Source of the DNA: Antrihabitans stalagmiti
Lineage (GTDB): Bacteria; Actinomycetota; Actinomycetes; Mycobacteriales; Mycobacteriaceae
Length of the DNA stretch: 64,000 bases
NCBI RefSeq assembly: GCF_016482825.1
Contig: NZ_JAEMNV010000002.1
Span: forward strand, 248,001 to 312,000
Direction: 5' to 3'
Part shown: piece by piece, positions 12,389 to 61,874 of the stretch
Layout: the number at the start of each line of letters is the position of its first letter
Numbering within the stretch: the stretch's first letter is position 1
Translations under genes and position numbers: made by a program
Notes under the pieces: generated by a model
Seen by the model: the letters and a program-made list of their open reading frames with translations, nothing else
What the model was told of the DNA's origin: nothing
The model's database searches: none

Positions 12389-15300
12389 TCAGTTGGCTTG
12401 TTCGGCAAGCTTTTCCAGCAGGTGACCTGCCAGCTCGACCGGCGTCGGGTGTTCGAGGATCATCCGAATCGGTAGCTCGACACCGGTCGCAGCGGCGAGA
12501 CGTTTGCGAATCTGCAGCCCGGAGATCGAGTCCATACCGAGCTCCAGAAACTGTCCCGTCGGCTCGATGTCGTCCACGGAGTCGTATCTGAGCACACTGG
12601 CGATCTCGTTTCTGATCAACTCGACGAGTGTTCGCTCGCGCTCGTCGGTCGACATGGCAGCGAGTTCGACGAGTAGCGAGCTGTTGTCCTTCTCAGCTTG
12701 ATCATGATGTGAGCGCAGCCGCCGGTACTCGGGCAAGTCGGTGAAAAACGCACCCGCCCGCGTCCGCGTCAGTACGGATTCGGGCTGCTCCCAATCGATG
12801 TCGGCAATCAGCACCTCTGTGGCGCCCGATGTGACCAGCTGCTGTACGGCCGCGACGGCGACGGCAGGGTTCATCGGCTTCATGCCGACGATCACGTCGT
12901 CCCCGGTGTCCCAACCGATCGATGTCGCGACCAGCCCGCGTGCCCGGCGTCGCTGGGCCAACGCGGTGAAGTATGCGTTGATTGCAGCGCCTTTCGACCG
13001 ACCCGCGGCACCCCACACGCCGAACCCCGGCGACATCAGAACGAACGCATCGAGCTCGCGGTCGCCCACGACGTCGTCCAGATTTCTCGCGCCGACGGTC
13101 GTGTCGAGCAGCCCGTTCGAGTCGGAATCCAGCAGTGCTACATACGCTTCCGGCTCGACGATATGCAGTACCGCAGTGAGCGAGAACTTCTCGTCGATGC
13201 CGGTGACAAGTCCGGCGACTGCGTCGGCGTTGCCGAGATCGCACTCGCGCACCGTCACTGCAGCAGGCACATCGGCAATGTCGGTGACATCGGATCCGGC
13301 AAGCACGACCTGATCGGCACCAGCGCCGGCGAGCCAACGGGCAACGTCGACGGCTGCCGAACCTGTTCCCGTGACGAGCACGGTCCCCGTCGGCTGCCAG
13401 GCCTGCGGCGCCTTGGTACCCGCCTGCTGAGCGCGGTGGATTCTGCGCGCGAAGACACCGTCGGCACGGATGGCGACCTGATCGTCGTCGCCCTGACTGA
13501 TGACTGCGCACAACGAGTCGAGCACACTCGTCGTCAAGGCTTCCGGTAGATCGACCAGACCTCCCCACCGCTGCGGAAGTTCGGTTGCGGCGACCCGACC
13601 GACACCCCACAGGAGCGCGTGCTCCGGGTCCGGCGCTGCGTCATCCGGTCCGACGGAGACGGCCGAGGTCGTTGCGCACCAGAGCGGAGCCTCGATACTC
13701 AGGTCGTCGAGTGCCTGCGTGAGAAGGACGGCCGACGGGCCTTCGCCACCGACTCCGAGCAGCGACAGGATTCCTGCAGGTCGACCGCCGGTTGTCGTAT
13801 CACGCAGCTGCGCAACGAGATCGGCTCTTTTCGCGTCGGGCGCAAGGTCGATGATCCGGGCATCGCCGAGATGTTCGCCAACGGCGTCCGCAATCCTGGC
13901 CACCCGTTCGTGGTCCTGACCAGCAGCGACGGCGACGTACCAGATACCTCGTTTCGGGGCGACCGGTCGACGAGCGACGCGGTCGAACGTTGTTCGGTAG
14001 CAACACTTGTCGACAGCAGCCGCACGGGTGGAGCGGTTACGCCACGTAGCAAGCTGCGGCAGCACCACGGCAAGGGATTCGGTGTCGGTACTACCGAGCA
14101 GATTCGCCAACCCACGGGCGTCCCCGCGGTCGACAAGCTGCCAGAACCCACTGTCGCGCGCATCCGGTCGCTGGTCGCCTGCTCCGAATTCGTCTGGCAG
14201 CCAGTACCTTTGATGCTGGAACGGATAGGTCGGCAGATCGGGTCGGTACTTTCCGTCCCCACCCGCGTACGATGCGCGCCAATCGACCTGCACACCTTCG
14301 ACGTACAGTTCGGCGGCGGAGGTGTAGAACCGCGCAAGGTCGCCCTGTTCGCGTTGCAACGTGCCACCGGTCAGCACGCGGATCGACATATCACCTGCAA
14401 TCTGTTCGACGGCCGGCAGCAGCACGGGATGCGGGCCGGGCTCGACGAAAGTCCGCCAGCCGGCGCGAATCGCGGATCGCATCGCCGAATCGAACCGCAC
14501 GGTGTTGCGCATGTTCCGGAACCAGTACGCGGCATCGAGCCCGGTCGTGTCGAGTTCGTCGCCGACCACCGTCGAGAAGAACGGCACCTTCGCCGCCTGC
14601 GGCACCGTCCCCGCGAAGGATTCCAGCACCTGATCGCGGAACTGGTCGATAGCACTCGAATGTCCCGCGCCCGTGGCTCCGCGAACGTAACGAACCTTCC
14701 CGCCGAGCGCGGTGAGATCGGCGGCTGCCTCGGAAAGGAGATCGGGAGGACCCGAAATAGTATGAGATTCAGGGGAATTCATGGCAGCGATCGACACCGT
14801 ACCGTCGAAGTGTGCGATGGCACCCTCGATCTGCTCGCCGGAGAGTCCGAGGACCGACGCCATAGTGCCATTGGTCAGGGTCGCTAGCAGCTTGCTGCGA
14901 ATGCCGACGATCTTCGCCGCATCCTCGAGGGACAAGGCACCGGCAACACACGCGGCAGCCACCTCACCCTGCGAATGGCCTACCACGGCAGCGGGAATCA
15001 CCCCGTACGACTTCCACAATTCGGTGAGCGAAACCATCACCGCGAACAGGGTCGGCTGCACGATGTCGACCGTCTCCAACGCGGGCGCACCGGCATCTTG
15101 GCGCAGCACCGCACCGAGCGACCAGCCGGTCCACGGCTCGAGCGCTTGCTCACAGTCGGCGATCGCACGTGCGAAGACGTCCGACTCGGCGAGCAGTTGC
15201 CTACCCATGCCGACCCATTGGCCGCCCTGCCCGGGAAAGATGAATACCGGAGGTCCTGGATTTCGGGAAACCCCCACCGACACATTCGGATTCGCACCGG

Positions 15301-17035
15301 TACCGCGGATCGCGTCCAAGCCGTCCGACAACTCGTCACTCGTCGTTCCGATCACCACAGCGCGGTGCTTGAACGGCACTCGCGATGCCAGTGAATACCC
15401 GATGTCGACCGGGTCGGCTTTCGTTGCCGACAGCCAATCCTGCAACCGCGTCGCCTGCGCCTCCAGCGCCGACTTCGTTCGCGCCGACACCACCCACGGG
15501 ACAAGTCCGACGCTGCGGCGCGCGCTCTCGGAAACATCCGAAACATCGGCGGGAGGCGGCGACGACACGAGAACGTGAGCGTTCGTTCCGCTGACACCGA
15601 ACGACGAGACACCACCGGTCCGTGCCCGATCCTCGCTCCACGCAACAGGTTTCGTGAGCAATCGCATCGCACCCGACGACCAATCGATCTGCGACGACGG
15701 GACCTCGGCATGCAACGTCTGCGGTAGGACCCCGTTGCGCATCGCCATAACAAGCTTGATCACGCCGGCAACGCCCGCCGCGGGCCCCGAGTGGCCGATG
15801 TTCGACTTGATCGACCCGAGCCAGAGCGGCCGGTTCGCGTCTCGATTCCCACCGTAGGCCGCAAGCAGCGCGCCCGCTTCGATCGGGTCGCCGACCGATG
15901 TTCCTGTCCCGTGCGCTTCGACGACATCGACGTCGGCGCCGGTGAGTTGCGCGCTCGCAAGCGCCGCCCTGACCACCTGCTGCTGTGCAAGGCCGTTCGG
16001 CGCCGCCATACCGTTGGACGCACCGTCCTGATTGATGGCGCTGCCCCGGATCACGGCAGCGACCGGATGGCCGTTGCGACGAGCATCGGACAGGCGCTCG
16101 AGCAGCACGATGCCGACGCCCTCGCCCCACCCGGTGCCATCCGCGGTGTCGGCGAACGCCTTGCAGCGGCCATCGGGTGCAGCCGCAAGCCTCGTCATCC
16201 CGAGCAGCATCGGAGTGGACATGATCATCGTGCCGCCTGCGACAGCAAGATTCGTTTCGCCGCTGCGCAACGATCGGCAGGCTTGATGGATTGCCACCAG
16301 CGATGAAGAGCATGCCGTATCGACAGTAATCGCCGGGCCTTCGAAGCCGAATGCATACGCCAGCCGGCCGGACAGCACGCTCGACATACTGCCGGTCATC
16401 ATGTGCGTCGCATCGCCGTCGTCGGGAATGTAGCGCGGCGCTGCTTCGTCGTCGCCGTGAATATGCGATAGGTCGTCGTCCGGCGCTGGTGCCTCTGCCA
16501 CGTCACTGGTCAGGTACTCGTTGTCCGTCTGCACGATCGACGCCAGGTAGTCCAAGCCCGTCGCTCCCATGAACACACCGGTCGGGGTGCCCCGAAGTGT
16601 GGTCGCAGCGATGCCGGCACGCTCGATCGCCTCCCACGTCACTTCGAGCAGCATGCGTTGCTGAGGGTCCATCAACATCGCCTCGCGCGGCGAGATGCCG
16701 AAGAACTGTGAATCGAAACCCGCGATGTCGGACAGAAAGCCGCCTGCCTGGGCGAAGCCACTCTCCAGGCTGCTGGACTTCGTCGCGATGACCTCTCGCA
16801 TCGAGTCCCACCCTCGATCGCTCGGGTAGGGGCCGATGGCATCGACACCGGAATTGACCAATTCCCACAGGTCTTCCGGGGTCCGAATTCCGCCTGGATA
16901 GCGGCATGCCATCGCCACGATCGCGATCGGCTCGTGAGATCGCTCTTCGAACTCGGCGAGACGCCGACGAGACTCCTGCAGGTCCAGCGTGACTTTCCTG
17001 AGGTAGTGCCGCAGTCGCTCCTCGCTCGCAGTCAT
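12389..17035 (-). CDS. PKS H: KS-AT(alkylmalonyl-type)-inactive KR-ACP, likely the last module
   Basis: Single-module type I PKS of 1548 residues, shorter than its neighbours because no DH is present. Order: N-terminal docking helix (LRHYLRK class), KS with Cys242, AT with GHSQG (Ser688) and GAGH (789-792) where malonyl ATs have HAFH, degenerate KR, ACP with LGMDS (Ser1503). The KR has lost its cofactor loop (GTGSAA near residue 1222), and Gly near 1349 replaces the catalytic Tyr, so the beta-keto group should stay. AGH-type signatures occur in ATs for ethylmalonyl and related extenders, and the CCR lies directly downstream. The KS carries an acidic insert of about 32 residues (roughly 175-213). 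The protein ends shortly after the ACP, without the docking tail seen on A to G and without a thioesterase. AAAGGA lies 5 bases before the ATG. Inference: last condensation, adding an alpha-alkyl beta-ketoacyl end. Confidence 0.95.
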   Translation of the reverse strand: MTASEERLRHYLRKVTLDLQESRRRLAEFEERSHEPIAIVAMACRYPGGIRTPEDLWELVNSGVDAIGPYPSDRGWDSMREVIATKSSSLESGFAQAGGFLSDIAGFDSQFFGISPREAMLMDPQQRMLLEVTWEAIERAGIAATTLRGTPTGVFMGATGLDYLASIVQTDNEYLTSDVAEAPAPDDDLSHIHGDDEAAPRYIPDDGDATHMMTGSMSSVLSGRLAYAFGFEGPAITVDTACSSSLVAIHQACRSLRSGETNLAVAGGTMIMSTPMLLGMTRLAAAPDGRCKAFADTADGTGWGEGVGIVLLERLSDARRNGHPVAAVIRGSAINQDGASNGMAAPNGLAQQQVVRAALASAQLTGADVDVVEAHGTGTSVGDPIEAGALLAAYGGNRDANRPLWLGSIKSNIGHSGPAAGVAGVIKLVMAMRNGVLPQTLHAEVPSSQIDWSSGAMRLLTKPVAWSEDRARTGGVSSFGVSGTNAHVLVSSPPPADVSDVSESARRSVGLVPWVVSARTKSALEAQATRLQDWLSATKADPVDIGYSLASRVPFKHRAVVIGTTSDELSDGLDAIRGTGANPNVSVGVSRNPGPPVFIFPGQGGQWVGMGRQLLAESDVFARAIADCEQALEPWTGWSLGAVLRQDAGAPALETVDIVQPTLFAVMVSLTELWKSYGVIPAAVVGHSQGEVAAACVAGALSLEDAAKIVGIRSKLLATLTNGTMASVLGLSGEQIEGAIAHFDGTVSIAAMNSPESHTISGPPDLLSEAAADLTALGGKVRYVRGATGAGHSSAIDQFRDQVLESFAGTVPQAAKVPFFSTVVGDELDTTGLDAAYWFRNMRNTVRFDSAMRSAIRAGWRTFVEPGPHPVLLPAVEQIAGDMSIRVLTGGTLQREQGDLARFYTSAAELYVEGVQVDWRASYAGGDGKYRPDLPTYPFQHQRYWLPDEFGAGDQRPDARDSGFWQLVDRGDARGLANLLGSTDTESLAVVLPQLATWRNRSTRAAAVDKCCYRTTFDRVARRPVAPKRGIWYVAVAAGQDHERVARIADAVGEHLGDARIIDLAPDAKRADLVAQLRDTTTGGRPAGILSLLGVGGEGPSAVLLTQALDDLSIEAPLWCATTSAVSVGPDDAAPDPEHALLWGVGRVAATELPQRWGGLVDLPEALTTSVLDSLCAVISQGDDDQVAIRADGVFARRIHRAQQAGTKAPQAWQPTGTVLVTGTGSAAVDVARWLAGAGADQVVLAGSDVTDIADVPAAVTVRECDLGNADAVAGLVTGIDEKFSLTAVLHIVEPEAYVALLDSDSNGLLDTTVGARNLDDVVGDRELDAFVLMSPGFGVWGAAGRSKGAAINAYFTALAQRRRARGLVATSIGWDTGDDVIVGMKPMNPAVAVAAVQQLVTSGATEVLIADIDWEQPESVLTRTRAGAFFTDLPEYRRLRSHHDQAEKDNSSLLVELAAMSTDERERTLVELIRNEIASVLRYDSVDDIEPTGQFLELGMDSISGLQIRKRLAAATGVELPIRMILEHPTPVELAGHLLEKLAEQAN

Positions 17036-17162
17036 GATTGTCCTTTCGGTGCACCCGATCGACGGAGCATCCTTTTGAATCTAGGTGATCGTTCCGCCCG
17101 TGTGTTGCGAAGTCTCGAGATAGGACGAGCGGGCAATTCACGCCGTTCGGTTATGCGCAGCA

Positions 17163-20100
17163 TCAGAATTCGTCGCCAGCGTCAGCAAGCCCGAGGTCAC
17201 TGTCGATGAAGTCGAACAGCTCGTCGTCGCTCGACGGCACGATCGCCGAGTGTGAGACATCGAATCGTGATGTCAATTGCCGCAGACGCCGGATCGCCTC
17301 CGTGTGCTCGCGGCTTCCGCCGTCCAGATTGGTCAGTGCGGTTTCGATGTCGTCGATCTGCCGGGCTAGGTTCGAGTCTGGGCCATCGGACGTCGGCAAC
17401 GACAGCTGTATGTGTTTCGCCACCGATATCGGGGTGGGATGGTCGAAGGCGATGGTCGCGGGCAGGGTGATTCCTGTTACTCGCGAGAGTCGGTTCCGTA
17501 GTTCGATCGCAGCCAGCGAATCGAAGCCCAGGTCGAGGAAGGCCGTCTCGGGATCGACAGCATCGGGTCCGGGATGGCCGAGCACACCGGCGACGTGAGT
17601 ACGGACGAGATCCGAAAGGACGCGGAGTTGCTCTTCGTCCGACAGACCTACCAGGCTTGCGGCGAGTTCCGCCGCGGCTTCGGCGGCGTGCGCGCCGTCA
17701 CCAGCCGTGACGGGTGATCGCACCAACCCGCGCAGCATCGGCGGCACGGCGCCGAGGGCAGCCACCTGCGCCTCCATCCCCTGCCGATCCAGTCGTGCCG
17801 CAGCGACGGCAGCTCGACCGCTGCCTATGGCCGCGTCCAACAGTCCAAGCGCTTCGGGCTCCGTCATGGCAACGAGTCCCCCGCGACGCATGCGGGCCCG
17901 ACCTGTGTCGTCGAGTTCCGCGGCCATGCCACCCGCCAGGTCCCACAGACCCCACGCGATCGAACACCCTGACAGTCCGAGCGCCGTGCGGTGATCCGCC
18001 AGCGCATCCAGGAATACGTTGGCCGCCGCGTAACTTGCCTGCCCTGGCGCACCGATGGTGCCCGCGACGGAGGAGAAGAGAACAAAACCAGCCACGTCGA
18101 GGTCCTTCGTCAGATCGTGAAGGTGCCACGCACCCATCACTTTCGGCGCCAACACGGTCGACACACGCTGCGCATCCAGCGAGGCCAGCATGCCGTCGTC
18201 GAGGACACCGGCAGCGTGCACTACGGCGGTCAACGGGTGTGCTGGATCGATACCCGACACCAAGGCTGCCACCGAATCTCGTTCTGCCACATCGCAGGCC
18301 ACCCACCGAACCGTGGCACCGAGTTCGGCAAGTTCCGTGCTGACCTCAGCTGCACCGGCCACCGCACCGCCACGGCGGCCCGCCATCACGACATGTCGGA
18401 TGCCGCACTCGGACACCAGATGTCGCGCGACGACGATGCCCAATGCTCCTGCGCCACCGGTGATCAACACCGTTCCCTCGGCATCCCAACCGAGTTCGTT
18501 TCGTTCGCCGGATACCGCCACCGGCGCGAGCCGCGGTGCCGATATCCGACCTTGTCGGACAGCAAGCTGGGATTCGGCGCCCGCGACCGCCGCCGCCCAT
18601 ATAGCGGACGGTATCGGTCCGCTTTCCGAGTGACCGTCCAGATCCACGAGGACGAATCGCCCTGGATACTCCATCTGCGCGCTACGAACCAAGCCCCACA
18701 GTGGCGCCTGCGCGACACCCTCGACCACATCGCCTGCAGCAGCGGCGATTGCACCCTCGGTCACGACAAGCAATGGAATTTTCGCGACCTCGGCCGTGTG
18801 ACTCCAGGCCTGCAGCAGCTCCAATACCCGGACCGTCAGTTCCTGCGCAGCATCCGGGACCGGACCCGTGGCGAGCCCAGCGCAGGGCAGCACCACAGCA
18901 ACGGGTGGCCGCGCTCCTTCGCCGAGCGCCTCGACCACCCCTGCGATATCGGCGAACCAACGCACACCGATACCCACCTCGGCTGGATCCCCAATTCCCC
19001 ATAGTGGCCCGGATAGTCCCGAACCAACCTGCACCCCAACCCAATTGACGCCATAGAGGGATTGCCGGCCACCAGCCGCAGCCAGCTGCTGCCTGGACAC
19101 GGAGACCAAGACGACTGCATCGACGCTCACGACGGGACGCCCCGCCGGATCGACCGCCGTCAGCTCCAGCCGATCGCCATTGCGCCGCAGGCTAACTCGC
19201 AACCGAGCCGAATCCGCTCCACCGACGGACACGCCTTGGAACGAAAACGGCAACCACACTCTGCCGCCACCGAGGTCCGTATCCGACTGCGGTGCAGCGG
19301 CTTCCGCGACCGCCCACGCGTGCACGGCTGCATCGAACGCGGCCGGATGCACTCCGTACCCGGAGGCTGCGCTGCCATCGGTTTCGATGTCGGCGAACAC
19401 TTCGTCCCCACGTCGCCACAGTTGGCGCACACCTCGGAACGCCGGTCCGTAGCCGTAGCCGATCTCTGCTAGCCGCGTGTAGCCGGCAGCAACGTCGACT
19501 GCAATTGCGTCCTCGGGCGGCCAGACAGTCGATTGCTCGGACATCGGTGCTGATAGCGATGCTGATATCGAGCCGGACGCGTGCCGCACCCACGCCGCCG
19601 AATCTGCCTCGGATGCGTCATCGCTGTCCGGACGGGAGTGCACTGCCACCGGACGATGCCCTGAGTCGCCTGCGCTGACAACCACGCGTACAACCACATC
19701 GTGCTCGGCAAGTACCAGCGGATCCTCGAGTACAAGTTCGTCCACGCGGTCGTAGCCGAGCAATCGGGCTGCTGCAGAAACCAACTCGACGAGGCCGGTG
19801 CCGGGCAGCAACATCGTCCCGAAGACGACGTGATCGGAAAGCCAACGCTGCGACGAGGTCGACAACCGCCCTGTGAACACGACCTCCCCTCCGGGAACTG
19901 CAACCAGCGCGCGAAGCAACGGATGCTCCACTGCGGTCACACCGAGGCTGCCTACATCACCTGCCGACACTGCAGGCGACAGCCAATAGCGTTGGCGTTG
20001 AAACGCATACGACGGCAAATCCACCCGCTGCGCACCCTGCCCCGCAAAGAACTGCACCCAATCCACCGCGACGCCATGGCAATGCGCATCCGCCACCGCC

Positions 20101-22607
20101 CGCACCAGCATCTTCACCTGCGACCGACCCCGACGCTGCACAGCAACCACAGCATCGGCATCGATCACCGCCGACAACTGCGCATCAGGACCGACCTCAA
20201 CGAACCGGCTGCCACCCACCGCCTGCGCCGCACTGATCCCATCAGCGAAGCGGACCGGCTCCCGCACCTGCCGCACCCAATACCCCGGATCAGTGAACAA
20301 CTCCGTTTCCAACTGCCCGGTCACAGTCGACACCAACGCAATACGAGGCAGATGCCAGGTCAGAGCCTGCGCCACCGCCGCGAACTCCGCCACCATCGGA
20401 TCCATCAACTCCGAATGAAACGCATGACTCACCGAGAGGCGTTTCGTGCGCCGACCCGACCACCGCGCTTCCAGTTCCTCGATCCCCGCCACCGGCCCCG
20501 ACACCGTCACCGACGAACGACTGTTGATCCCCGCAATCGACACCCCAGTAGGTAGATCCGTGACATCGGATTCAGCAGCCTCCACCGCGAGCATCGCCCC
20601 ACCCGACGGCAACGCCGCCATCAACGCACCCCGCGCCGTCACCAACCGCACCGCATCCGCCAGAGACAACACCCCCGCCACATGCGCCGCCGCGACCTCC
20701 CCGATCGAATGCCCCACCACCACATCCGGAATCACACCCCACGACTCGAGAAGTCGGAACAACGCCACCTCGACCGCAAACAACGCGAGCTGCGTGTTGT
20801 CCGTCCGATCCACATCCGTTCCACCGTCGAACAACCACCCCGGATCACAAATCTGTGTGATTGCTTCCGCGAACACCGGAAACGCCTCGAACAACTCCCG
20901 ACCCATCCCCGCCGACTGCGCACCCTGCCCCGACAACACGAACACCGTCTTCCCCGCAACAACCTTCACCGGAACCACAGACTCCAGCCCAGCAACGTCC
21001 GTCACCGCCACCCGCCACGGCAACTGCGCCCTACCCGCCAACGACACTCCGACATCCACCGCAGACACGTCAGGATGCACGTCCAGCCACCGCCGCAGCC
21101 GAAGCGACTGTGCAACAACAGCATCCGCCGACCGACCCGACACCACCCACGGCACCACCGGGAGCGAAATCGATTCCCCCACGCCACCATCCGACAGCGC
21201 TACACCCTCGACCGACGGCGCTTCCTCCACAATCACATGCGCATTCGTCCCACTGATCCCGAACGACGACACCCCCGCCCGCCGCGGCCGACCCTTCGAC
21301 TCCCACACCCGCGCCTCACCCAACAACCGCACCGCACCCACCGACCAATCCACATGCGACGACGGCGAATCCACATGCAACGACCTCGGCATCACCCCCC
21401 GCCGCATCGCCTCCACCACCTTGATCACACCCGCCACACCCGCCGCCGCCTGCGTATGACCCATATTCGACTTCACCGACCCCAACCACACCGGACCACA
21501 CTCACCCCGACCCTGCCCATACGTCGCCAACAACGCCTGCGCCTCGATCGGATCCCCCAACGCCGTCCCCGTCCCATGCCCCTCCACCACATCCACATCC
21601 ACCCCAGACAACCCAGCCGACGCCAACGCCGACCGAATCACCCGCTCCTGCGACGGACCATTCGGCGCCGTCAACCCATTCGACGCACCATCCTGATTCA
21701 CCGCAGAACCCCGCACCACACCCAACACCCGATGACCCTTCAACCGCGCATCGGACAACCGCTCCAACACAACCAAACCCGCACCCTCACCCCACCCAAC
21801 CCCATCAGCACTGTCCGAGAACGACTTACACCGACCATCCGGAGCCAAACCCCGCTGCCGACTGAACTCGACAAACGCTGCGGGCGTTGCCAGCACGGTC
21901 ACGCCACCTGCTAGTGCGAGGCTGCATTCCCCCGATCGCAACGACTGCACCGCCTGATGCACCGCGACCAACGACGACGAACATGCGGTATCCACCGACA
22001 CCGCCGGGCCTACCAATCCGAGTGAGTACGCGACGCGACCCGAGACGACGCTCGCCATTCCGCCCGAACTCAGGTAGCCCTCCAATTCGTCTCGGTGTGT
22101 ACTCATCGCTGCCGCGAAGCCGTAGTCGTGGTACATCACACCGGCGAACACGCCGGTTGCGCTGCCGCGCAGCGACGTCGGATCGATCCCTGCGTCCTCC
22201 AGCGCCTCCCATGCGACCTCGAGCAATACCCGCTGCTGCGGATCCGATGCCAAGGCTTCCCGCGGCGATATCCCGAAGAACCCTGCATCGAAATCACCGG
22301 CATCGCTGAGGAACGCACCCCGCCGCGTGTAAGACTTGCCGCGCGCCTCCGGGTCCGGATCGAACAGCCCGTCGACATCCCAGCCACGATCCTCCGGAAA
22401 CTCACCGACGACATCTCGACCTTCGATCAGCATGTCCCAGAACGTATCCCGCGAGGTGACGTCACCCGGGTAGCGGCATCCGACACCCACGATCGCCACC
22501 GGTTCGGAGCGCTCCAACGTGAGTTTCCGGTTCTCCGCGCGTAGGCGTTCCGCTTCGGTGATCGACCGCCGCAGCGCGTCGAGCATCGGATCCTGCGAGT
22601 CAGCCAT
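17163..22607 (-). CDS. PKS G: KS-AT(malonyl)-DH-KR-ACP
   Basis: Single-module type I PKS of 1814 residues. N-terminal coiled-coil docking helix (LDALRRS class), KS Cys209, AT Ser634 in GHSIG with HAFH near 728 (malonyl-CoA), DH with [10 protein letters not shown] near 925 and HPAAFD near 1090, KR with GGAGALG near 1388, the LDD motif and an active-site Tyr near 1526, ACP Ser1697. The C-terminus ends in a DELFDFID-type docking tail. No ER, so it should add a two-carbon unit and leave a double bond. The LDD motif marks a B-type KR, which usually leads to E geometry after dehydration. AAGGGG lies just before the ATG. A gap of 127 bases separates it from PKS H, the largest gap among the PKS genes; no convincing promoter was seen in it. 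The KS-AT part is nearly identical in DNA to those of PKS E and of module 2 of PKS A. Confidence 0.95.
19990..21860 (-). repeat. KS-AT cassette copy in PKS G
   Basis: Spans the AT and the C-terminal two thirds of the KS. Long stretches are identical to the cassettes in PKS E and in module 2 of PKS A. The boundary near 21860 falls in the KS, where the sequence suddenly becomes gene-specific; the other boundary is at the RQRYWL motif that ends the AT. Confidence 0.8.
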
Positions 22608-22658
22608 CGGTTCCCCTTGTCCGCGAATCGATTCGATTCGTCGTCTCGGTCGTGGAGA

Positions 22659-50100: not shown

Positions 50101-50491
50101 ATGCCACTTCGAGCAGCACCCGCTGCTGCGGGTCCATTGCGGCCGCCTCGCGTGGACTGATGCCGAAGAACGCGGCATCGAACTCGGCCGCACCGTAGAG
50201 AAACCCGCCGGTCCGCGTGTACGACTTGCCGCGTGCCTCCGGATCGGCGTCGTAAAGCCCCTCGTCCCAGCCACGATCGAGCGGGAACTCACCCACTACG
50301 TCACGGCCCTCGGACACCATGTCCCACAACTCGTTCCGCGACGTCACGCCGCCGGGAAAGCGACATCCGACACCGACGATGGCGATCGGCTCACGGGCAG
50401 CGTCGAGCAGCTCCCGCTCCCGCTGGCGAGACTTCCTCAGCTCGGCTGTAACCCAGCGGAGGTTGTCGAGGAGTTCCTTGTCGTCGGCCAT
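44135..50491 (-). CDS. PKS B: KS-AT(malonyl)-DH-ER-KR-ACP
   Basis: Single fully reducing module of 2118 residues. N-terminal docking helix ([12 protein letters not shown]), KS Cys207, AT Ser644 in GHSVG with HSFH near 740, DH with [10 protein letters not shown] (His941) and HPALLD near 1103, ER from about 1370 to 1660 with the cofactor loop [10 protein letters not shown] near 1506, KR with GGTGGLG near 1690, LDD and Tyr near 1831, ACP Ser1997, then a [13 protein letters not shown] docking tail. HSFH differs from the malonyl signature HAFH by one residue. Malonyl-CoA is still the likeliest substrate, but this is less certain than for the other modules. Predicted output is a saturated two-carbon unit. 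The ER-KR part closely resembles that of module 2 of PKS A, suggesting a duplication. GGGGAG lies 9 bases upstream of the ATG, and 43 bases separate it from PKS A. Confidence 0.95.
44144..44149 (-). promoter_or_regulatory. Ribosome binding site of PKS C (GTG start)
   Basis: The minus strand reads GAGGAG, 8 bases upstream of the GTG at 44135 and inside the last codons of PKS B. It supports a GTG start directly overlapping the upstream stop codon (TAGTG). Confidence 0.65.
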
Positions 50492-50534
50492 TACAGGTAG
50501 CTCCCCTTCCTCGTCCTGGTCCTCGCTGGCACGA

Positions 50535-53500
50535 TCATGACTTTCCGAATTCGCGTTGGATCATGTCGAGCAGTTCATCGGCACTCGCCGACTCCAGATC
50601 GCCGCTGTCGACCGGTGTCTGCTCGCGCCGCGCGCCGATGTCTCGGACGGTCCGGACAAGCGCCTCCAACCGATCCGAGACCTGTGTCAGCACGGCCCCT
50701 CCCGGCTCCAGCTGAGTGAGCGCGCGCTCGAGCCGATCCAGCTCACCGAGGACACCGTCGGCGGCATCACCAAGAACCTGCTGCTGCAGGTATGTTGCAA
50801 TCGCGAGCGGGGTCGGATGATCGAATACCGTTGTCGCCGAGAGCTGCAGTCCGGTAACAGTATTGAGTCGGTTGCGGAGCTCCACCGCGGTGAGCGAGTC
50901 GAAGCCGAGGTCGCGGAAGTTCGCTTCCGGATCTACCTGCTCGCCCCGACGGTGTCCGAGTACGATCGCGATCTGCGCGCGGACCGTATCCAGCAACCGC
51001 TTGGCCTGCTGCTCCGCGGACAACCCGCCGAGATCCAGTGCCGCAGTTGCGATCGGCGCAGGATCGACTGTACGTCGGCCGCCGACGAGGTCGTGGAGGA
51101 TCGGCGGCCTGTGCGCCGCCGCACGGAGCGCGGCCAGATCGAAGTCGGCAGCGATCACAACGGCTCCGGGCTGAGCTACCGCGTCGTCGAACAACCTGAC
51201 CCCGACGTCGGTTACCAAGGGGCGCAGGCCGCCCCGACCGATTCGCGCGGTGTTCGCTGTGCCGAGTGTCGCTCCCATGCCCGCGTCGGCTGCCCACAGA
51301 CCCCAGTCGATCGCCACAGCCGGCAAGCCGAGCGCCCGTCGATGCACCGCAAGCTCGTCGAGAAAGCCGTTGGCCGCTGCATAGTTCGCCTGCCCGGGAG
51401 ATCCGAAAACACCTGCAACAGAGGAGAACATGACGAACCACGCGAGGTCGTGATCGCGCGTCAGTTCGTGCAGGTGCCATGCAGCATCGACCTTCGGTGC
51501 CAGTACGGCACGCAGTCGCTTCGGGTTCAGCGCGGCGAGAACGCCATCGTCAAGCACGCCCGCCGTATGGACGATGCCGGTGAGCGGGTGTTCCTTCGGC
51601 AGTTGCTCGACAAGGTCACGGCATGCAGCACGGTCGGCAACATCACATTCCGCGATCCGTACCTGTGCACCGAGGTCGGTGAGCGAGGCGAGCAACAGCT
51701 CGGCGCCAGGCGCCGAAAGTCCACGCCGACTTGCCAGGACAAGATGCCGAACGCCGTGCTCGACGACAAGGTGCCGCGCAAGTACCGCGCCGAGTCCACC
51801 TGTCCCACCGGTGATCAGCACGGTGCCGTTCGGATCGAGCGGCTGCGGGACGGTCAGGACGATCTTTCCGACATGGCGCGCCTGGCCGAAGTATCGAAAC
51901 GCGTCCGGTGCGTTGCGGACATCCCACGCCGATATCGGTAGCGGGGCAAGCCTGCCCGACTCGAACAGTGTCGACAACTCGCCGAGTAGTCGGCCGATGT
52001 GGTCGCTATCGACCTTGGTCAGGTCGACGGCGCGGTACCGCACTCCGTCGTGAACGCTCGCGACCTGTGCCGGATCGCGGATGTCGGTCTTGCCCATCTC
52101 GATGAACCAACCGCCGCGTGGCAGCAGTCGCAGGCCTGCGTCGACGAATTCGCCTGCCAGGGAATCCAAGACGACGTCCATACCTGCGTCGTCTGTCGCG
52201 GCCGAGAAGAACTTCTCGAATTCGAGGGTCCGCGAATCTGCGATCCGATCCGGCGCGACACCCAAACCGCGCACTGTCGACCATTTTCCGCGGCTGGCCG
52301 TCGCGTACACCTCGACGCCCCACAACCGAGCGAGCGCCACGGCCGCCATACCGACGCCACCGGCAGCTGCATGGACAAGCAACCGCTGGCCTGCCCTGAT
52401 GTCGGCGATGTCCGACAACGCCAGCCATGCGGTCAGGTAGACCGTCGGGACACCCGCGGCCTCCCCGAACGACCAGCCCGCCGGAATCCTTGTCACCAGT
52501 TGCTGATTCGTCACAACCGTCGACCCGCCACCCGGCGCGAGTCCCATCACCCGGTCACCTACCGCAAACTCGCGCACGTCCGGACCGACCTCGACCACAA
52601 CCCCGGCTACGTCGGACACCACACCGACCGCATCGGCCGATACGACACCCAGGCACACCAGCACGTCCCGGAAGTTGACGCCCATCGCCCGCACCGCGAT
52701 TCGAAGCATGCCCTCGCCGAGTGTCGGTTGGCGATCCGAAGCCTCGACGATCCCGACGCCGTCCAGCACACCTGGATTCACCACGGCCAGCTTCCAGTCG
52801 GCCGCAGGCAGGGTATGCGGATCGACAGGGGCCACGCGCGGTGCGGAGACCGCACCGTCGCGAAGCGCCAATTCCGGCTCTCCCAGCATCGGTAGATGCG
52901 CGAAGTCGACGTCGGTTGCAGCACCCTCGATGTCCACCAGGGTGATTCGCCCCGGCTCTTCGGCCTGCGCGGAACGCAGCAGACCCCGGACAGCACCCCC
53001 CGAGAGACCGCGTGTGATGGCCACCAGATGTGAATCGGCGTACCGTCGATCGCCGAGGAAGGCCTGGACAAGCGCGAGTGTGTGGTCGAGTCCGCCGTGC
53101 ACGCCTGGCACACTCGACGGCTCCGAAGGGGATGAATCGTCGACTGCAGCAACACATTCGACGACGATGACGTCGGGAGCAGGATCAGCCCCTGTGACGA
53201 GGGCGATCGCCTCTGCCACACTCAGGAGCCGACCCGCAACGCCGGAACGTGCGGGCTTCTGCAGCTCTGTCCACTGCACCTCGTGCAAGACGAGAGAATT
53301 GCGTACCGCTGCTCGTGGCTGCCAATTCACTGGCAAGGGTCGTGCGGCTATTCGATCCACCGAAACGACAGCACGCCCAGCGTCATCGAATGCTTCGAAC
53401 GAGCCTGCGGCACCGCCGCTCACCACGATCCGTGCGCGGAGTCGACGCGCGCCGGTGGCAAGCAACGAGACGCCCTGCCACACGAACGGCACCAGAACCG

Positions 53501-56500
53501 CGTTGTCGGTGCCCGGTTCGAACGACCCGAGTACTCCAGCATGAACAAGCGCGTCGAGCAACGCGGGATGGATTCCGAATGCTGCGTTGTCCGCCGCATC
53601 GTTGGTCACCGCATCCGGCAGCGCGACGTCAGCGAAGAGCACGTCTGCGTCGCGCCACAGCCGTTGCACGCCGATAAATGTGGGTCCGTAGCCGTACCCG
53701 GCCTCGGCCAGGCGGGCATATCTTTCGGCGACGTCGAGCTCGGTCGCACGCTCGGGTGGCCACGGGCCGGAATAGACCTGCACGCCTGATGGATCGGCCG
53801 CACTCACGACCGCCTCGGCGTGCAGTACCCACTCTGCGTCCGGCTGGTCACCTCGTGAATAGACCGACACAGCCGAGTCGCGCATCGCGACCTGAACCGC
53901 AACACCACCTGAATCGGGCAGCACCAACGGCTCTCGCAACATCAGTTCCTCGATATGACCGCATTCGACTTCGCTGCCCGCGCGAATCACCAACTCCGCC
54001 AACGCCGCTGCGGGCACCAAGACCGAACCAAGGACCGTGTGGTCTGCCAACCAGGGCAGTGAGCCGATCGACATCCGGCCGGTGAACACCAGGTCGCCAC
54101 CGGGCACACCAACCATTGTTCGTAGGACCGGATGATCGACGCGTGTCTGACCAAGGCTGCTCGACTCGGCTGGAGAATCGGCATGCAGCCAATAGCGTTG
54201 GCGTTGAAACGCATACGACGGCAAATCCACCCGCTGCGCACCCTGCCCCGCAAAGAACTGCACCCAATCCACCGCGACGCCATGGCAATGCGCATCCGCC
54301 ACCGCCCGCACCAGCATCTGCACCTGCGGACGCCCCCGCCGCTGCGTCGCAACCACAGCATCGGCACCGATCACCGCCGACAACTGCGCATCCGGACCGA
54401 CCTCAACGAACCGGCTGCCACCCGCAACCTTCGCCGCACTGATCCCATCAGCGAAGCGGACCGGCTCCCGCACCTGCCGCACCCAATACCCCGGATCAGT
54501 GAACAACTCCGACTCCAGTTGCCCGGTCACGTTCGACACCAACGCAACACGCGGCAGATGCCACGTGAGTTGCTGTGCCACCGCCGCGAACTCCGCCACC
54601 ATCGGATCCATCAACTCCGAATGAAACGCATGACTCACAGTGAGCCGTTTCGTGCGCCGACCCGACCACCGCGCTTCCAGTTCCTCGATCGCCGCCACCG
54701 GACCCGACACCGTCACCGACGAACGACTGTTGATCCCCGCGATCGACACCCCCACAGGTAGATCCGCAATGTCAGCCTCAGCGATTTCCACCGCCAGCAT
54801 CGCCCCACCCGCAGGCAACGCCGCCATCAACGCACCCCGCGCCGTCACCAACCGCACCGCATCCGCCAGATCCAACACCCCCGCCACATGCGCCGCCGCG
54901 ATCTCCCCGATCGAATGCCCCACCACCACATCCGGAATCACACCCCACGACTCGAGAAGGCGACAGAGAGCCACCTCGACCGCAAACAAGGCCAGCTGGG
55001 TGTTGTCCGTCCGATCCAGATCCGTTCCACTGTCGAACAACCACCCCGGATCACACACCTGTGTGATTGCTTCCGCGAACACCGGAAACGCCTCGAACAA
55101 CTCCCGACCCATCCCCGACGACTGCGCACCCTGCCCCGAGAACACGAACACCGTCTTCCCCGCAACAACCTTCACCGGAACCACAGCCTCGAGCCCAGCC
55201 GGATCAACCACCGCCACCCGCCACGGCAACTGCGCCCTACCCGCCAACGACACTCCGACATCCACCGCGGACACGTCTGGATGCACGTCCAGCCACCGCC
55301 GCAGCCGAAGCGACTGTGCAACAACAGCATCCGCCGACCGACCCGACACCACCCACGGCACCACCGGGAGCGAAATCGATTTCCCCACGCCACCATCCGA
55401 CAGCGCCACACCCTCGACCGACGGGGCTTCCTCCACAATCACATGCGCATTCGTCCCACTGATCCCGAACGACGACACCCCCGCCCGCCGCGGCCGACCC
55501 TTCGACTCCCACACCCGCGCCTCACTCAAAAGACGCACCGCACCCACCGACCAATCCACATGCGACGACGGCACACCCCCAAACAACGACGCCGGCATCA
55601 CCCCCCGCCGCATCGCCTCCACCACCTTGATCACACCCGCGACACCCGCCGCCGCCTGCGTATGACCCATATTCGACTTCACCGACCCCAACCACACCGG
55701 ACCGTTTTCCCGATTCTGGCCATACGTCGCCAACAACGCCTGCGCCTCGATCGGATCCCCCAACGCCGTCCCCGTCCCATGCCCCTCCACCACATCCACA
55801 TCAGCCGACACCAACCCCGCCGACGCCAACGCCGACCGAATCACCCGCTCCTGCGACGGACCATTCGGCGCCGTCAACCCATTCGACGCACCATCCTGAT
55901 TCACCGCAGAACCCCGCACCACCCCCAACACCCGATGACCCTTCAACCGCGCATCCGACAACCGCTCCAACACAACCAAACCCGCACCCTCACCCCACCC
56001 AACCCCATCAGCCGAATCAGAAAACGACTTACACCGACCATCCGGAGCCAAACCCCGCTGCCGACTGAAGTCGACGAAGACGGTCGGTGTTCCCATCACC
56101 GTCACACCGCCGGCCAACGCCAGACTGCACTCCCCCGATCGCAATGCCGCAGAAGCTTGATGCATTGCAACCAAGGACGACGAACACGCCGTGTCCACCG
56201 AGACAGCCGGGCCCAACAACCCGAGCGAGTACGCAACTCGACCCGTTACCAGCGAACCGCCGGGTGTATGCGATCCGTAGTCGTGATACATCACGCCTGC
56301 GAACACTCCGGTGTCGGTGCCGCGCAACGACACCGGATCGATCCCTGCGTCTTCGAGCGCCTCCCACGCCACCTCGAGCAGTATGCGTTGCTGCGGGTTG
56401 GTTGCTAGTGCTTCACGCGGCGAGATGCCGAAGAACGCCGCATCGAAATCGCCTGCGTCGTAGAGAAACCCACCGGAGTTCGTATATGACTTACCCTCCG

Positions 56501-59500
56501 CGTCGGGATCCGGATCGTAAAGATTGTCGTCCCATCCGCGGTCGTCGGGAAACTCGCCGATGACATCCAAACCGTCGGATACCAACTGCCACAGATCGTC
56601 TCGGGATCCAACTCCCCCCGGATATCGACAGCCCACACCCACGATGGCAATAGGCTCTGCCGACTCGGCGATACGCGCCGGTTGAGCTGACACGCGCGAT
56701 GCGCCGCTCGACTGTTCGACCAGGTAGGCGGCGAGCGCCGTCGGCGTAGGGTAATCGAAGACCGCGGTTGCAGGAAGCGGCAGTCCCGTAGCTGCTTTCA
56801 GACGGTTGCGGACTTCCAGCGCCAGCAGTGAGTCGAAGCCGAGATCCTGGAAATTTCTGTCCGGGTCGATGGCGTCCGGGGCGGTGTGCCCGAGTGCCAC
56901 CGCTATCTCCGCGCGCACAGTGTCGAGCACCACTGAAAGCTGTTCTTGTGGAGCGATATTCGCCATTCGATCGACAAAAGTATGCGATCGTCCGACAGTG
57001 TGCGCCGACGGGCGCGGCTTCGGCGCAATGACACCCCACATCGGCGTACCCAGCCCGGCACGTGCCCGCAAGGTTCGCGAGTCGACTGTCGCGGCAACCA
57101 CGTCCGGGCGCAGGGAACGAATTGCCTCGTCGAAGAGCGTCAGCGCGTCCTCGGTCGGCAGCGGGGTCAATCCGGCGCGACCGAGCCTGGCAGTGTCGGT
57201 GTCGCTCAGTACGGCCGTCATACCGCCATCCGCCCTCCACGGACCCCAGGCGATCGAGGTCGCGACGGAACCGGCCGCGTGCCGCTCCCGCGCGAGCGCG
57301 TCCAAAAATGCGTTCGCTGCCGCGTAGTTCGCCTGTGCAGGTGACCCGACAACCCCTGCGGCAGAAGAGAACAACACGAACATCGACAGATCGTGGTCAA
57401 CCGTGGCGGTGTGGAGGTACCACGCGCCGTCGACCTTGGGCCGCAGTACTCTCCTCAGTCGGTCCGGATCGAGCGTGCAGAGCACGCCGTCCTCGACGAC
57501 ACCCGCGGCATGCACAACACCGACGAGCGGAACCTCCGCGTCGATCGACGCTACGAGTTCACGCACTGCGCCGAGATCGGCGACGTCGCAGGCGACAACC
57601 CGCACGTCGGCACCCTGTTCCACCAGTTCCGCCCGCAGTTGCTCCGCCCCCGGTGTCGACGCACCACGGCGACTCACGAGGAGCAAATGCCGAACTCCAT
57701 ATCGGCGGACCAGATGTCGAGCGAGAATCGCCCCGAGCCCACCGGTTCCACCCGTGATCAACACGGTTCCGGCCGACAGCTCGGGCGGCGGTGTCAGCGT
57801 CGGCGCAGCACCGCGTACCAATCGTGGGACGAACACCTGCGCTCCACGCAGCGCAAGTTGTGGCTCGGTGGATGCTGATGTCGCAGAGAGGATCTCAGCC
57901 ACGTCGACATGGACACCGTCAATATCAACCAGCCGCACCCGGTCCGGTTCCTCTACCTGAATCGACCGGACCAATCCCCAGACAGCGCCCGCACCGAGGT
58001 CGACCGTGTCGTTTTCGTGGACCGTCACGCCACCCCGGGTGAGCACGGTGAGGGTGCTCGCATCGAACCTCGCGTCTTGCAGAAACTGCTGCAGCACAGC
58101 CACAACCGTCTGAGACATCGTGTGCACGTTGGCAACCACATCGGTCCGCGCGTGGGCCGAGCGCACATCCACAACGACATCGGCAGGCACAACTGCTACG
58201 GCTGAGTCGACGACAGCGCTCCACTCGGCGTACGACACCGACGCGGGCGGGCAGTGCACCGGTTGCCACTCGACTCGGAGCAACGACGAGGTGTCGGACT
58301 CGTTGTCGTCGACCGCGATCGCACGCGCTGTCACTTCGGCAACCGATAGGACCGGGCGGCCTTGCGAATCCACAACGACCAATGCCATCGTGTCTGGCGC
58401 AGTCACCGTGATCCGCGCACGGACCGCTGTTGCACCCGATGCCTGCAGCGTCACGCCTTCCCACACGAACGGCAGGAGGACACCGTCCGCGGAGCGCATC
58501 GCCAACTGTGCGTGCAGAATCGAATCGAGCAGAGCGGGATGCAACCCGAAACCGCTTGCGTCCGTCGAATCCGGCAGTGCAGCTTCGACGAACAGTTCGT
58601 CGCCACGGCGCCACAGCGCGGTCAGACCACGGAAGGCGCTGCCGTAGTGATAGCCGCTCGTCGCGAGGCGACCGTAGAGATCACCTAGCTCGACCGCGTC
58701 GGACCCGAGAGGAGGCCAGGCAGCAAGATCGACAGCGGGCGTATCAATTGCGGGCGAGAGCTTGCCACTCGCGTGCAGGGTCCATTCGTCCACGCTCGAA
58801 CCAGCGGATACCGTCTCGTCCCGCGCGTATATGGACACGGTTCGCGTACCCGATTCGTCTGCTCCACCGACAATCACGTGCACGACCGCAGCGCCGTCAG
58901 CGGAGAGTCGCATCGGTGCGGTGATCGACAGTTCGCGAATCGAACGGCAACCCACTTCGTCGCCGGCACGGACGGCAAGTTCGACGAAAACCGTTCCGGC
59001 AACGACGATGCTGTTGCCGATCCGGTGGTCCGCCAGCCACGGCTGCGCCATCGGGGACAGCACGCCGGTAACTACGACACCACCCGAATCCGGGTTCGCG
59101 ACAATAGCATTCACCAGCGGATGGCCAGTCGCCCGCAATCCGGCTGCGTCGACGGCAGCGGCTCCTGCGCTCGCCCAGTACCGAACGGGGGCAAAGGCAT
59201 ACGGAGGCAGGGGCACGTACGTCGCGCCTTTTCCGCCGAGCATCGCACGCAATGTCACCGCGATACCACTACAAGCCAGGGTTGCTGCCGCGGTGATCGT
59301 CGAAACCACACCACCGCGATCCTTACGCAGCAGCGGGACCGCGCAGACATCGTCGATCGAAATCGACTCGTGCAGCAGGTTCGTCAGGCCTCCGTCCGGG
59401 CCGAGTACGACGAAACGGACCACTCCTGCCTCGTCGAGCGAACGGATCGCATCGGCGAATCCGACCGGCTCACGCACCTGACGAACCCAGTACTCCGCTG

Positions 59501-61874
59501 TCGCCAGGTCGAGGTCGGCCGCAACGGTGGAAATCATCGGGATCGATGGTGTTGTGTAGGAGATGCTTTCGGCAACCTGTGCGAACTCGGCCAACATCGG
59601 CTCGACAAGCGCGGAATGGAACGCGTGCGACACCGGCAGGCGGCTGCACCGGTAGCCGCTCTGCTCGAGCACATCGACCAGAGCGGCGACGGGATCGGCA
59701 GCGCCGGAAACCACTACCGATGTGGGTCCGTTGACTGCGGCAATTTCGGTACCCGCGACAAGCGCCGACCTGACCTGCGCCTCGGATGCCTGCACGGCGA
59801 CCATCGCGCCGCCGCCGGGGAGCGCCGCCATCAATTTCCCACGTGCTGCCACGAGGCGGGCGGCGTCAGCGAGGGACAACACGCCGGCGACGTGAGCGGC
59901 GGCAATTTCTCCGATCGAATGTCCGGCGACGAATTCCGGTGTTATACCCCAGGATTCGACAAGCCGGTACGAGGCGACACCGATCGCGAACAGTGCGGCC
60001 TGTGCAAAGTCGGTGCGGTCGAGCAACTCCCGGTCACGTCCCCATACGACGTCCCGCAGCGGTTGGGCGGACTCCAGGTCGAGAACGGCTGCCGCCGCAT
60101 CGAATGCCGCTGCGAAAACCGGGAACTCGGTGTACAGGTCCTGACCCATTCCGACGAACTGCGCACCCTGGCCGGGAAAGACGAATGCGGTTCGCCCGGC
60201 GATCGCGCTGCCACCGATCACAGTCGGCGAGGTGCGGCGCGCCGCGATCGCGTCCAGTCCGGCGAGCAGATCCGTGCGGTCGGTAGCCACCACAACCGCA
60301 CTGCACCCGTGGCTCGACCGATTTGCGAGCGACCAGGCGACGTCCAGTGTGGAAAGGTCGTTCCTGGTGTGCAGCCACCGCGCCAGACGAGCCGCCTGAC
60401 GTACCAGACCGTCGTCGTCACGAGCCGTAAGCACCCACGGCACAACCGGATTCCCGGGCTCGACGCCCTGGACAGACGGCTGCGGTGTCGGCGCGGCTTC
60501 GAGAACGAGATGCGCATTGGTTCCGCTGATGCCGAACGACGAGACTGCCGCACGCCGTGGCCGATCGCCGACCTCCCACGGTCGGGCCGAGTCGAGGAGG
60601 TCGAGTGTGCCTGCCGTCCAGTCGATCTGGTGACTCGGCTCGTCGATGTGCAGCGACCTCGGCACCACACCATGCTCCATGGCGACAATCATTTTGATCA
60701 CTCCGGCGACGCCTGCCGCGGCCTGTGTGTGGCCGATGTTCGATTTGAGTGATCCGAGCAGCACCGGTCGGTCGGTTTCGCGTTGCCCGTACGTGGCGAG
60801 CAGCGCGTGGGCCTCGATCGGATCGCCGAGTGGTGTACCGGTGCCGTGCGCCTCGACGACGTCGATGTCGTCGACCCCCAACCCGGCCGCGTCCAGCGCG
60901 GCTCGAATCACCCGCTGCTGCGACAGTCCGTTCGGAGCGGTGAGTCCGTTGCTCGCGCCGTCGTGGTTGATCGCACTTCCGCGAACGACTGCCAAGATGT
61001 TGCGTCCGTTGCGCTGCGCATCCGACAACCGTTCGAGCAGGAGGACGCCGACCCCTTCGGACCAGCCGACACCGTCCGCCGCGTCGGAGAAAGACTTGCA
61101 GCGCCCGTCTGCTGCGAGTCCGCGCTGGCGCGAGAAGTACTGAAACATTCCCGGTGTCGCCATGATCGTCACACCGCCGGCGAGCGCGAGGTCGCACTCA
61201 CGTGACCGCAAGGACTGGGCGGCCTCGTGCAGCGCCACGAGCGACGACGAGCACGCCGTGTCGATGGAGAGCGCCGGACCGTGCAGGCCGAGGTGATAGG
61301 CGATGCGGCCGGATACGACGCTGATCGTGTTTCCCGTCAGCGAATGGCCCTCGATTTGGGCCCAGCCTTCGGTGTTGAGCAGTCGCGCTCCGTAATCGTT
61401 TGCACTCGCGCCGGCGAAGACACCGGTTCGGCTGCCGCGCAACGACCTCGGATCGATGTCCGCGTGTTCGACGGCCTCCCAGGAGGTCTCGAGCAGGAGC
61501 CGCTGCTGCGGGTCCATGGCCATTGCCTCACGGGGCGAGATGCCGAAGAACTCGGCGTCGAATTCGGTAGCCCCGTCGAGAAACCCACCCTCGCGGACGT
61601 ACGTGCGTCCTGCCGCGTCGGGGTCGGAATCGAAAAGCGCGTCGGTATCCCAATCCCGATCGCGAGCGAACGCACCGATGGCATCACGTTCGTCCGCAAC
61701 CAGCTCCCACAGCTCGTCCGGCGTCGTCACACCACCTGGCAAGCGGCAGGCCATCCCGATCACCGCGATCGGCTCCGTGCGCTCGGCACGCAGCCGACCG
61801 ACCTCGCTGCGCGCCTCGCGAGCCTCACCAAGCGTCCGCTTCAGGTATTCCCTGAGCTTGTCCTCGTTAGACAT
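50535..61874 (-). CDS. PKS A: two modules, KS-AT-DH*-KR-ACP and KS-AT-DH-ER-KR-ACP
   Basis: Bimodular type I PKS of 3779 residues. N-terminal docking helix LREYLKR. Module 1: KS Cys208, AT Ser653 with HAFH near 750 (malonyl), DH with His950 but [10 protein letters not shown] where HxxxGxxxxP is expected, HPALLD near 1114, KR near 1375 with VED and Tyr near 1516, ACP Ser1682. Module 2: KS Cys1897, AT Ser2321 with HAFH near 2415 (malonyl), DH with [10 protein letters not shown] near 2612 and HPALLD near 2768, ER with [10 protein letters not shown] near 3175, KR near 3355 with LDD and Tyr near 3498, ACP Ser3660, then an [12 protein letters not shown] docking tail. Module 1 may leave a hydroxyl because its DH motif is degenerate; module 2 should give a saturated unit. 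An ATG 29 codons upstream is in frame, but the one used here puts the docking helix at the usual distance from the protein start. Neither has a clear ribosome site. Confidence 0.95.
54190..56065 (-). repeat. KS-AT cassette copy in PKS A module 2
   Basis: Near-identical over about 1.85 kb to the copies in PKS E and PKS G, with the same AT-side boundary (RQRYWL) and a KS-side boundary matching that of PKS G. G-ending codons are frequent, unlike the surrounding DH, ER and KR coding sequence. Confidence 0.8.

Follow-up and report, generated by a model that had tools for sequence, protein, structure and literature searches.

Docking domains at the ends of modular polyketide synthase (PKS) subunits are known in two types that matter here: type 1a, represented by DEBS2/DEBS3 (PDB IDs: 1PZQ, 1PZR), and type 1b, represented by PikAIII/PikAIV (PDB ID: 3F5H). 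Both types are described in print, as are their orthogonality and joint occurrence in a single line (PMC8792006, PMC12284057) and the inference of subunit order from docking domains (PMC11199612). In Thattai 2007, a matching class was necessary and insufficient (true positives 0.97, false positives 0.52); residue pairs refined one class, and the authors' own subclass predictions were marginally above random (PMC1994986). We analysed a stretch of 64,000 nucleotides from Antrihabitans stalagmiti (the window; positions 248001-312000 of contig C12, NZ_JAEMNV010000002.1, in a 6.4 Mb assembly of 44 contigs). It carries eight PKS genes, A to H, and the 5' part of a ninth, I. We propose, with a probability of about 0.87, that the nine proteins form one cis-AT line, the order of which would be held by two orthogonal kinds of class 1 docking domain, with I first and H last. 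The likely working order, as read from the sequence, is I-A-B-C-D-E-F-G-H.

The PKS genes and their domains, assigned with Pfam, are as follows.

50535..61874, minus strand: PKS A, KS-AT-DH-KR-ACP and KS-AT-DH-ER-KR-ACP; start at MSNEDKL
44135..50491, minus strand: PKS B, KS-AT-DH-ER-KR-ACP
38811..44135, minus strand: PKS C, KS-AT-DH-KR-ACP
33460..38814, minus strand: PKS D, KS-AT-DH-KR-ACP
28088..33472, minus strand: PKS E, KS-AT-DH-KR-ACP
22659..28091, minus strand: PKS F, KS-AT-DH-KR-ACP
17163..22607, minus strand: PKS G, KS-AT-DH-KR-ACP
12389..17035, minus strand: PKS H, KS-AT-KR-ACP, the KR degenerate (KR motif scan)
1..10302, continuing beyond the window to C12:245448, minus strand: PKS I, 5' part, KSQ-AT-ACP loading module, then two KS-AT-DH-KR-ACP modules; headless, with a class 1a tail

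All eight genes A to H lie on the minus strand, where the original prediction had placed them, and A most likely starts at 61874. Each module has KS, AT and ACP domains, as in a cis-AT type I modular PKS, and a loading module for the start of the line is present as the KSQ-AT-ACP of PKS I. KSQ stands for a KS with a Gln mark, as defined in figure legends (PMC8792006). Seven of the nine proteins (B to H) consist of a single module.

The N-terminal docking helices (heads) and C-terminal docking regions (tails) of A to H are listed below. Residue numbers of class 1a follow 1PZQ.

61773..61874, minus strand: A head, class 1a (R94, R99)
50538..50759, minus strand: A tail, class 1a (A63, Q71)
50387..50491, minus strand: B head, class 1a (L94, W99), opposite Q71 of A
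44138..44365, minus strand: B tail, class 1a (L63, D71)
44034..44135, minus strand: C head, class 1a (L94, R99)
38814..39047, minus strand: C tail, class 1b (R within the IRDMD core)
38707..38814, minus strand: D head, class 1b (L; most heads have K there)
33463..33720, minus strand: D tail, class 1b (D within the IDDMD core)
33356..33472, minus strand: E head, class 1b (K at the co-varying position)
28091..28303, minus strand: E tail, class 1a (E63, L70, D71)
27981..28091, minus strand: F head, class 1a (L94, R99, A100)
22662..22889, minus strand: F tail, class 1b, divergent (A within the IADMD core)
22500..22607, minus strand: G head, class 1b (T; most heads have K there)
17166..17381, minus strand: G tail, class 1a (D63, D71)
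16928..17035, minus strand: H head, class 1a (R94, K99)

The original prediction had sorted these ends into two groups of heads (A, B, C, F, H and D, E, G) and two groups of tails (A, B, E, G and C, D, F). Four profiles built from these groups were searched against the PDB sequences. The top two matches of the first head profile were 8i4y and 7wvz (named beta-ketoacyl-ACP synthase I; E 1e-8), followed by DEBS and Lsd14 chains (E 1e-7 to 0.02; 1PZR at 6e-4), and Pik chains were absent from its 20 matches with E<=1. The profile of heads D, E and G found 3F5H (E 7e-7); its remaining five matches were non-PKS proteins. Tails A, B, E and G gave Lsd14 and EryA2 chains (E 7e-13 to 4e-5), EryAI more weakly, and 1PZR and 1PZQ only at E 0.2. 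Tails C, D and F found 3F5H weakly (E 0.08). Because these profiles were built on the earlier grouping, hidden Markov models (HMMs) made from external junctions only are the stronger and independent test.

We collected 57 adjacent tail/head junctions from 80 stretches (genomes of the same order) and two named loci, and a second set of 21 junctions from 40 further stretches, some of which are close relatives of junctions in the first set. Regions were chosen by PF08990 or by an alignment of class 1b heads, the latter including five heads of the source genome. A junction was counted only if its head was recognised and an ACP could be identified at the end of the gene upstream; heads without an adjacent tail were dropped (33 of 100 in the first scan, source genome included, and 12 of 33 in the second). 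Two junctions between genes that are not adjacent, I-A and the loader junction of a second line in this genome, were added by hand. With HMMs built from the 57 external junctions, all 12 junctions of the source genome (eight of this line and four of the second line) were class-matched, each with a gap of more than 8 bits, as were 21/21 junctions of the second external set. Heads A, B, C, F and H and tails I, A, B, E and G belong to class 1a (DEBS type); heads D, E and G (PikAIV type) and tails C, D and F (PikAIII type) belong to class 1b. The three class 1b tails are clear by the external models, with F the weakest (13.7 vs 0.1 bits). When tails and heads of the 57 external junctions and the 12 of the source genome were clustered separately, tail and head classes agreed in 69/69 junctions by spectral and 68/69 by Ward clustering. 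Average linkage was rejected; it split off three outlying tails instead of the classes, with agreement at best 57/69.

There are two compatibility classes, and all adjacent pairs are matched. The grouping of heads and tails thus stands as first drawn, the tails of C, D and F being separate from those of A, B, E and G, and the seven predicted matches from A-B to G-H are all recovered. The description of the D, E and G heads as LxALRR-like holds as to class; the E head itself reads LNALRV. With five class 1a and three class 1b members per side, the chance of an 8/8 match is 1/56, and that of a 7/7 match for A-B to G-H is 1/35. Class match at adjacent genes is a general rule and not a peculiarity of this line. 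Being nearly universal, it would also fit a reading in which junctions descend as units without selection for order and the true order is set by module chemistry. We consider this unlikely. The KS domains of the second module of A and of B to G are 68-86% identical, whereas the heads within a class are 24-42% identical to the first aligned head, and the modules therefore offer little basis for choice.

PKS I lies 2.1 kb after H in the same cluster. Its gene ends outside the window at C12:245448, and the protein has the class 1a tail DELFDLVDEEFG, with the final residues ...SVTDDELFDLVDEEFGSF (30.2 vs -1.0 bits for class 1a in the external models). It had been anticipated that the head of A would be served by a DELFD-type tail, perhaps at the end of PKS I, and this C-terminus does carry such a tail. 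The external head models found no docking head on PKS I. Its first KS has VDSGQSSSL in place of the TACSSSL of extension KS domains, and it groups in a KS tree with the KSQ loader of the second line (support 100/99; both branches are long). The role of KSQ domains is decarboxylation. When the genome was searched with the class 1a tail profile, the matches were A, B, E, G, I (E 0.006) and two proteins that belong to the second line; three weaker ones (E 0.06 to 0.5) lay apart from the genome's KS genes. The tail of PKS I is the sole unpartnered class 1a tail found in the genome and could thus serve the head of A. The upstream neighbour of A, cut by the end of the window, encodes an ABC-type permease and not a PKS. 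At the other end, H has no docking tail by the external tail models and no thioesterase (TE) by Pfam, and it is likely the end of the line.

In the proposed line, PKS I would start the chain, its KSQ loading module decarboxylating the acyl unit. The two modules of PKS I would then extend the chain, and the class 1a tail would pass it to the class 1a head of A. From there it would move along A-B-C-D-E-F-G-H, where the tailless H would close the line. Contact residues would narrow the choice of partners inside each class, at 63/94 and 71/99 in class 1a and at an Asp/Lys position in class 1b. The domains, classes and residues are observed in the sequences; physical pairing of the ends, the flow of the chain and the order of the subunits are inferred from them. 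The protein encoded last most likely acts first. The earlier claim that the proteins act in gene order is therefore likely to hold from A to H and most likely fails for I.

PKS I could instead belong to a different pathway, or feed a protein that we call T, with A primed otherwise. T is a hybrid of a PKS and a nonribosomal peptide synthetase (C1:485276-498964) with a class 1a head and a TE at its other end. This head is the only one of class 1a without a tail among the heads and tails found; the genome search with the tail profile gave no leftover class 1a tail for it, and in the graded pair model given below I-T scores slightly above I-A. However, PKS I sits in the cluster of A to H, and if it were not the partner of A, then A would be partnerless among the tails found. 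We regard this assignment as very unlikely. That PKS I is a shared starter feeding both A and T, on the other contig, so that one trimodular protein would prime two pathways, seems to us extremely improbable.

A second modular PKS line of five PKS proteins is found at C1:891719-936559 (891-937 kb). It also has a headless KSQ loader encoded last; the tail of this loader and the head of the first extension protein are both of class 1b and so match. The loader tail is the weakest of the 12 class calls (8.0 vs -0.6 bits) and was missed by the class 1b tail profile in the genome search. The other three junctions are class-matched too. A loader-last order, apparently bridged by a matching docking pair, thus occurs twice in this genome.

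The classes had been expected to give a complete order. With I first and H last, 96/5040 arrangements of A to G pass by class alone, and the class code was rejected as a full order. We looked for co-varying residues among the external pairs. In class 1a (49 external pairs, 580 position pairs), the strongest pair was 63/94, followed by 70/100, 70/101 and 69/100. Asp63 stands opposite Arg94, and other residues opposite Leu/Val94, in 48/49 external pairs (shuffled mean 26.5) and in 3/3 later external pairs. A non-acidic residue 71 was never opposite Arg/Lys99 (8/8). In class 1b (25 external pairs, 345 position pairs), the strongest pair joined the first Asp in the IDDMD core of the tail to the Lys in SLKE of the head. 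This rule is obeyed by 25/26 pairs; the exception is a Streptomyces corynorhini row with Asn opposite Lys, added by eye. The alternative state, in which Asp and Lys change together, is seen at C-D and F-G here and in 3/25 of the counted external pairs, so the class 1b rule rests on few events. On external pairs alone, 63/94 comes first in class 1a and the Asp/Lys pair in class 1b. After thinning, 33 class 1a pairs (32 obeying 63/94) and 20 class 1b pairs remained (20/20 counted obeying). All eight native junctions obey the residue rules:

Class 1a: I D63/A R94; A A63,Q71/B L94,W99; B L63/C L94; E E63/F L94; G D63/H R94
Class 1b: C R/D L; D D/E K; F A/G T

The orders allowed fall from 96 to eight with 63/94 and to two with all rules, namely I-A-B-C-D-E-F-G-H and I-A-B-F-D-E-C-G-H. 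When random external sets of five class 1a and three class 1b true pairs were drawn, the own order was kept in 278/300 draws, with a median of six orders left and two or fewer orders in 22%. This line is on the sharper side of what the residue code can resolve, and it is not unique in that.

Three further candidates were rejected as decisive evidence. The 73/105 charge pair has E or D against R or Q at all five class 1a junctions; being identical in kind, it does not discriminate. In the KS tree, B, C and F are not resolved. The third candidate, a graded model based on five position pairs, had a leave-one-out area under the curve of 0.83 on the 49 external pairs, from which its positions had partly been selected, but it placed the native class 1a matching only 2/120 on this line.

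Several of these results weigh against the proposed order. The residue rules rest on related genomes, and the 71/99 pair, which enters the order counts, was first spotted in a scan that included pairs of the source genome. Because external sets kept their own order in nearly all draws, obedience to the rules is expected of any such line. The graded model does not favour I-A (0.32, compared with 1.03 for I-H and 0.61 for I-T). The alternative in which the chain goes from B to F and from E to C is one of the two orders that the rules leave; its score in the pair model is level with that of the native order (4.95 vs 4.89), and C and F are not told apart in the KS tree. This swapped order, however, would have to depart from gene order within A to H, and the native junction of E (L70) with F (A100) has the commonest partner of L70 in other genomes (10/13). 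We give the swap very little credence and retain I-A-B-C-D-E-F-G-H as the likely order.

Switching between classes had also been proposed to limit skipping between similar modules. Among the 49 pairings that are neither native nor self, 26 are forbidden by class and 42 by class and residue rules together; for the 28 forward skips, the numbers are 15 by class and 25 by all rules. As the KS domains of the second module of A and of B to G are so alike, the docking domains are among the few parts that could discriminate. The idea holds in part at the level of class, and docking domains may limit skipping in the cell. A non-cognate docking domain is reported to reduce titre greatly, with production still present (review PMC9113145).

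The chemistry of the line was read from motifs. The loading AT of PKS I carries YASH and is presumably of the methylmalonyl type. HAFH is found in the remaining ATs of I and in those of A to G, apart from B with HSFH; we take all of these to be of the malonyl type. In the AT of H the motif is GAGH. The NADPH and active-site motifs were not found in the KR of H in a scan that is narrow and also missed the KR domains of D and F and the first KR of A. HxxxGxxxxP was not found in the first DH of A in the motif scan, which makes a double bond from this module uncertain. The features of H suggest an unusual last extender and a beta-keto end, and it is plausible that such an extender closes a polyene-like chain. 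From the likely order, the predicted product would comprise a starter supplied by the KSQ module, three DH-KR units, two fully reduced units, five DH-KR units that would form a conjugated stretch, and a final beta-keto unit. Two further genes lie between H and I.

11113..12365, minus strand: crotonyl-CoA carboxylase/reductase in two frames, with a break near 11905-11930; both pieces match TIGR01751
10362..11138 (precise start unsettled), minus strand: type II thioesterase (PF00975, E 6e-43)

Each piece of the carboxylase/reductase by itself scores below the curated cut-off of TIGR01751; the two-frame gene (11113-12365) reflects either a true frame break or an assembly error. H (12389-17035), with its GAGH AT and degenerate KR, stands beside this gene.

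No close orthologue of the line came up in a search from which records very near the source genome were possibly excluded; two loci were returned for A, in an Amycolatopsis metagenome-assembled genome (54% identity) and in Streptomyces corynorhini (48%), both in best segments. The best near-full-length match of H, among the matches listed from 60 other genomes, was 48% identical over residues 210-1547. The S. corynorhini locus (L027 1321-34221) appears to be a related line; its three extracted junctions (class 1b, 1a, 1a) are all matched, and one further junction was left out. Two tails are far shorter than the others, namely the first of this S. corynorhini line (46 aa) and that of the loader in the second line of the source genome (41 aa).

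For a set of near-identical modules, the analysis yields a testable subunit order towards an uncharacterised polyketide, in which the last gene would make the first protein. With eight junctions, two classes and KS domains up to 86% alike, the line is a compact natural test bed for a two-layer docking code. The class 1b Asp/Lys pair, with changes on both sides at C-D and F-G, offers a concrete candidate specificity position. No description of this pair as a specificity position was found in the available sections of the literature searched. PikAIII/PikAIV themselves carry the Asp/Lys pair in their sequences, and a single charge reversal was enough for specificity at such interfaces (Buchholz 2009, as given in review PMC9113145). 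Asp/Lys may therefore be the known contact, and newness is not claimed.

The class 1a ends resemble the DEBS2/DEBS3 type in the YLKR-type head helix, in a tail closing in a DELFD-type helix and in the co-varying positions 63/94, 70/100 and 71/99; they differ in that the 73/105 pair named in PMC9113145 is uninformative among the junctions of this line. The class 1b ends share the VDALRASLKE-type head and the short IDDLDAEALIRMAL-type tail with PikAIII/PikAIV. They differ in that the usual Asp/Lys pair is present only at D-E, with R/L at C-D and A/T at F-G. As in Thattai 2007, mutually incompatible classes are followed by residue pairs (PMC1994986). The spacing of 63/94, 70/100 and 69/100 corresponds to {6,5}, {13,11} and {12,11} of that work, which suggests that they are the same sites (PMC1994986). 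Significant pairs were reported there in one class only, and our analysis adds a candidate pair in class 1b. Seq2PKS makes the same inference where gene order departs from working order (PMC11199612); unlike Seq2PKS, DDAP and antiSMASH (the latter two named in PMC11199612), we applied rules from other genomes by hand. The stambomycin PKS (PMC8792006) is alike in its nine subunits, in mixing types 1a and 1b over eight junctions (six type 1a and two type 1b there, five and three here) and in an inactive last KR. Unlike it, the present line consists mostly of single-module proteins, has its starter encoded last and has no TE found on its last protein. The locus is a clean further example of a known principle rather than a new mechanism.

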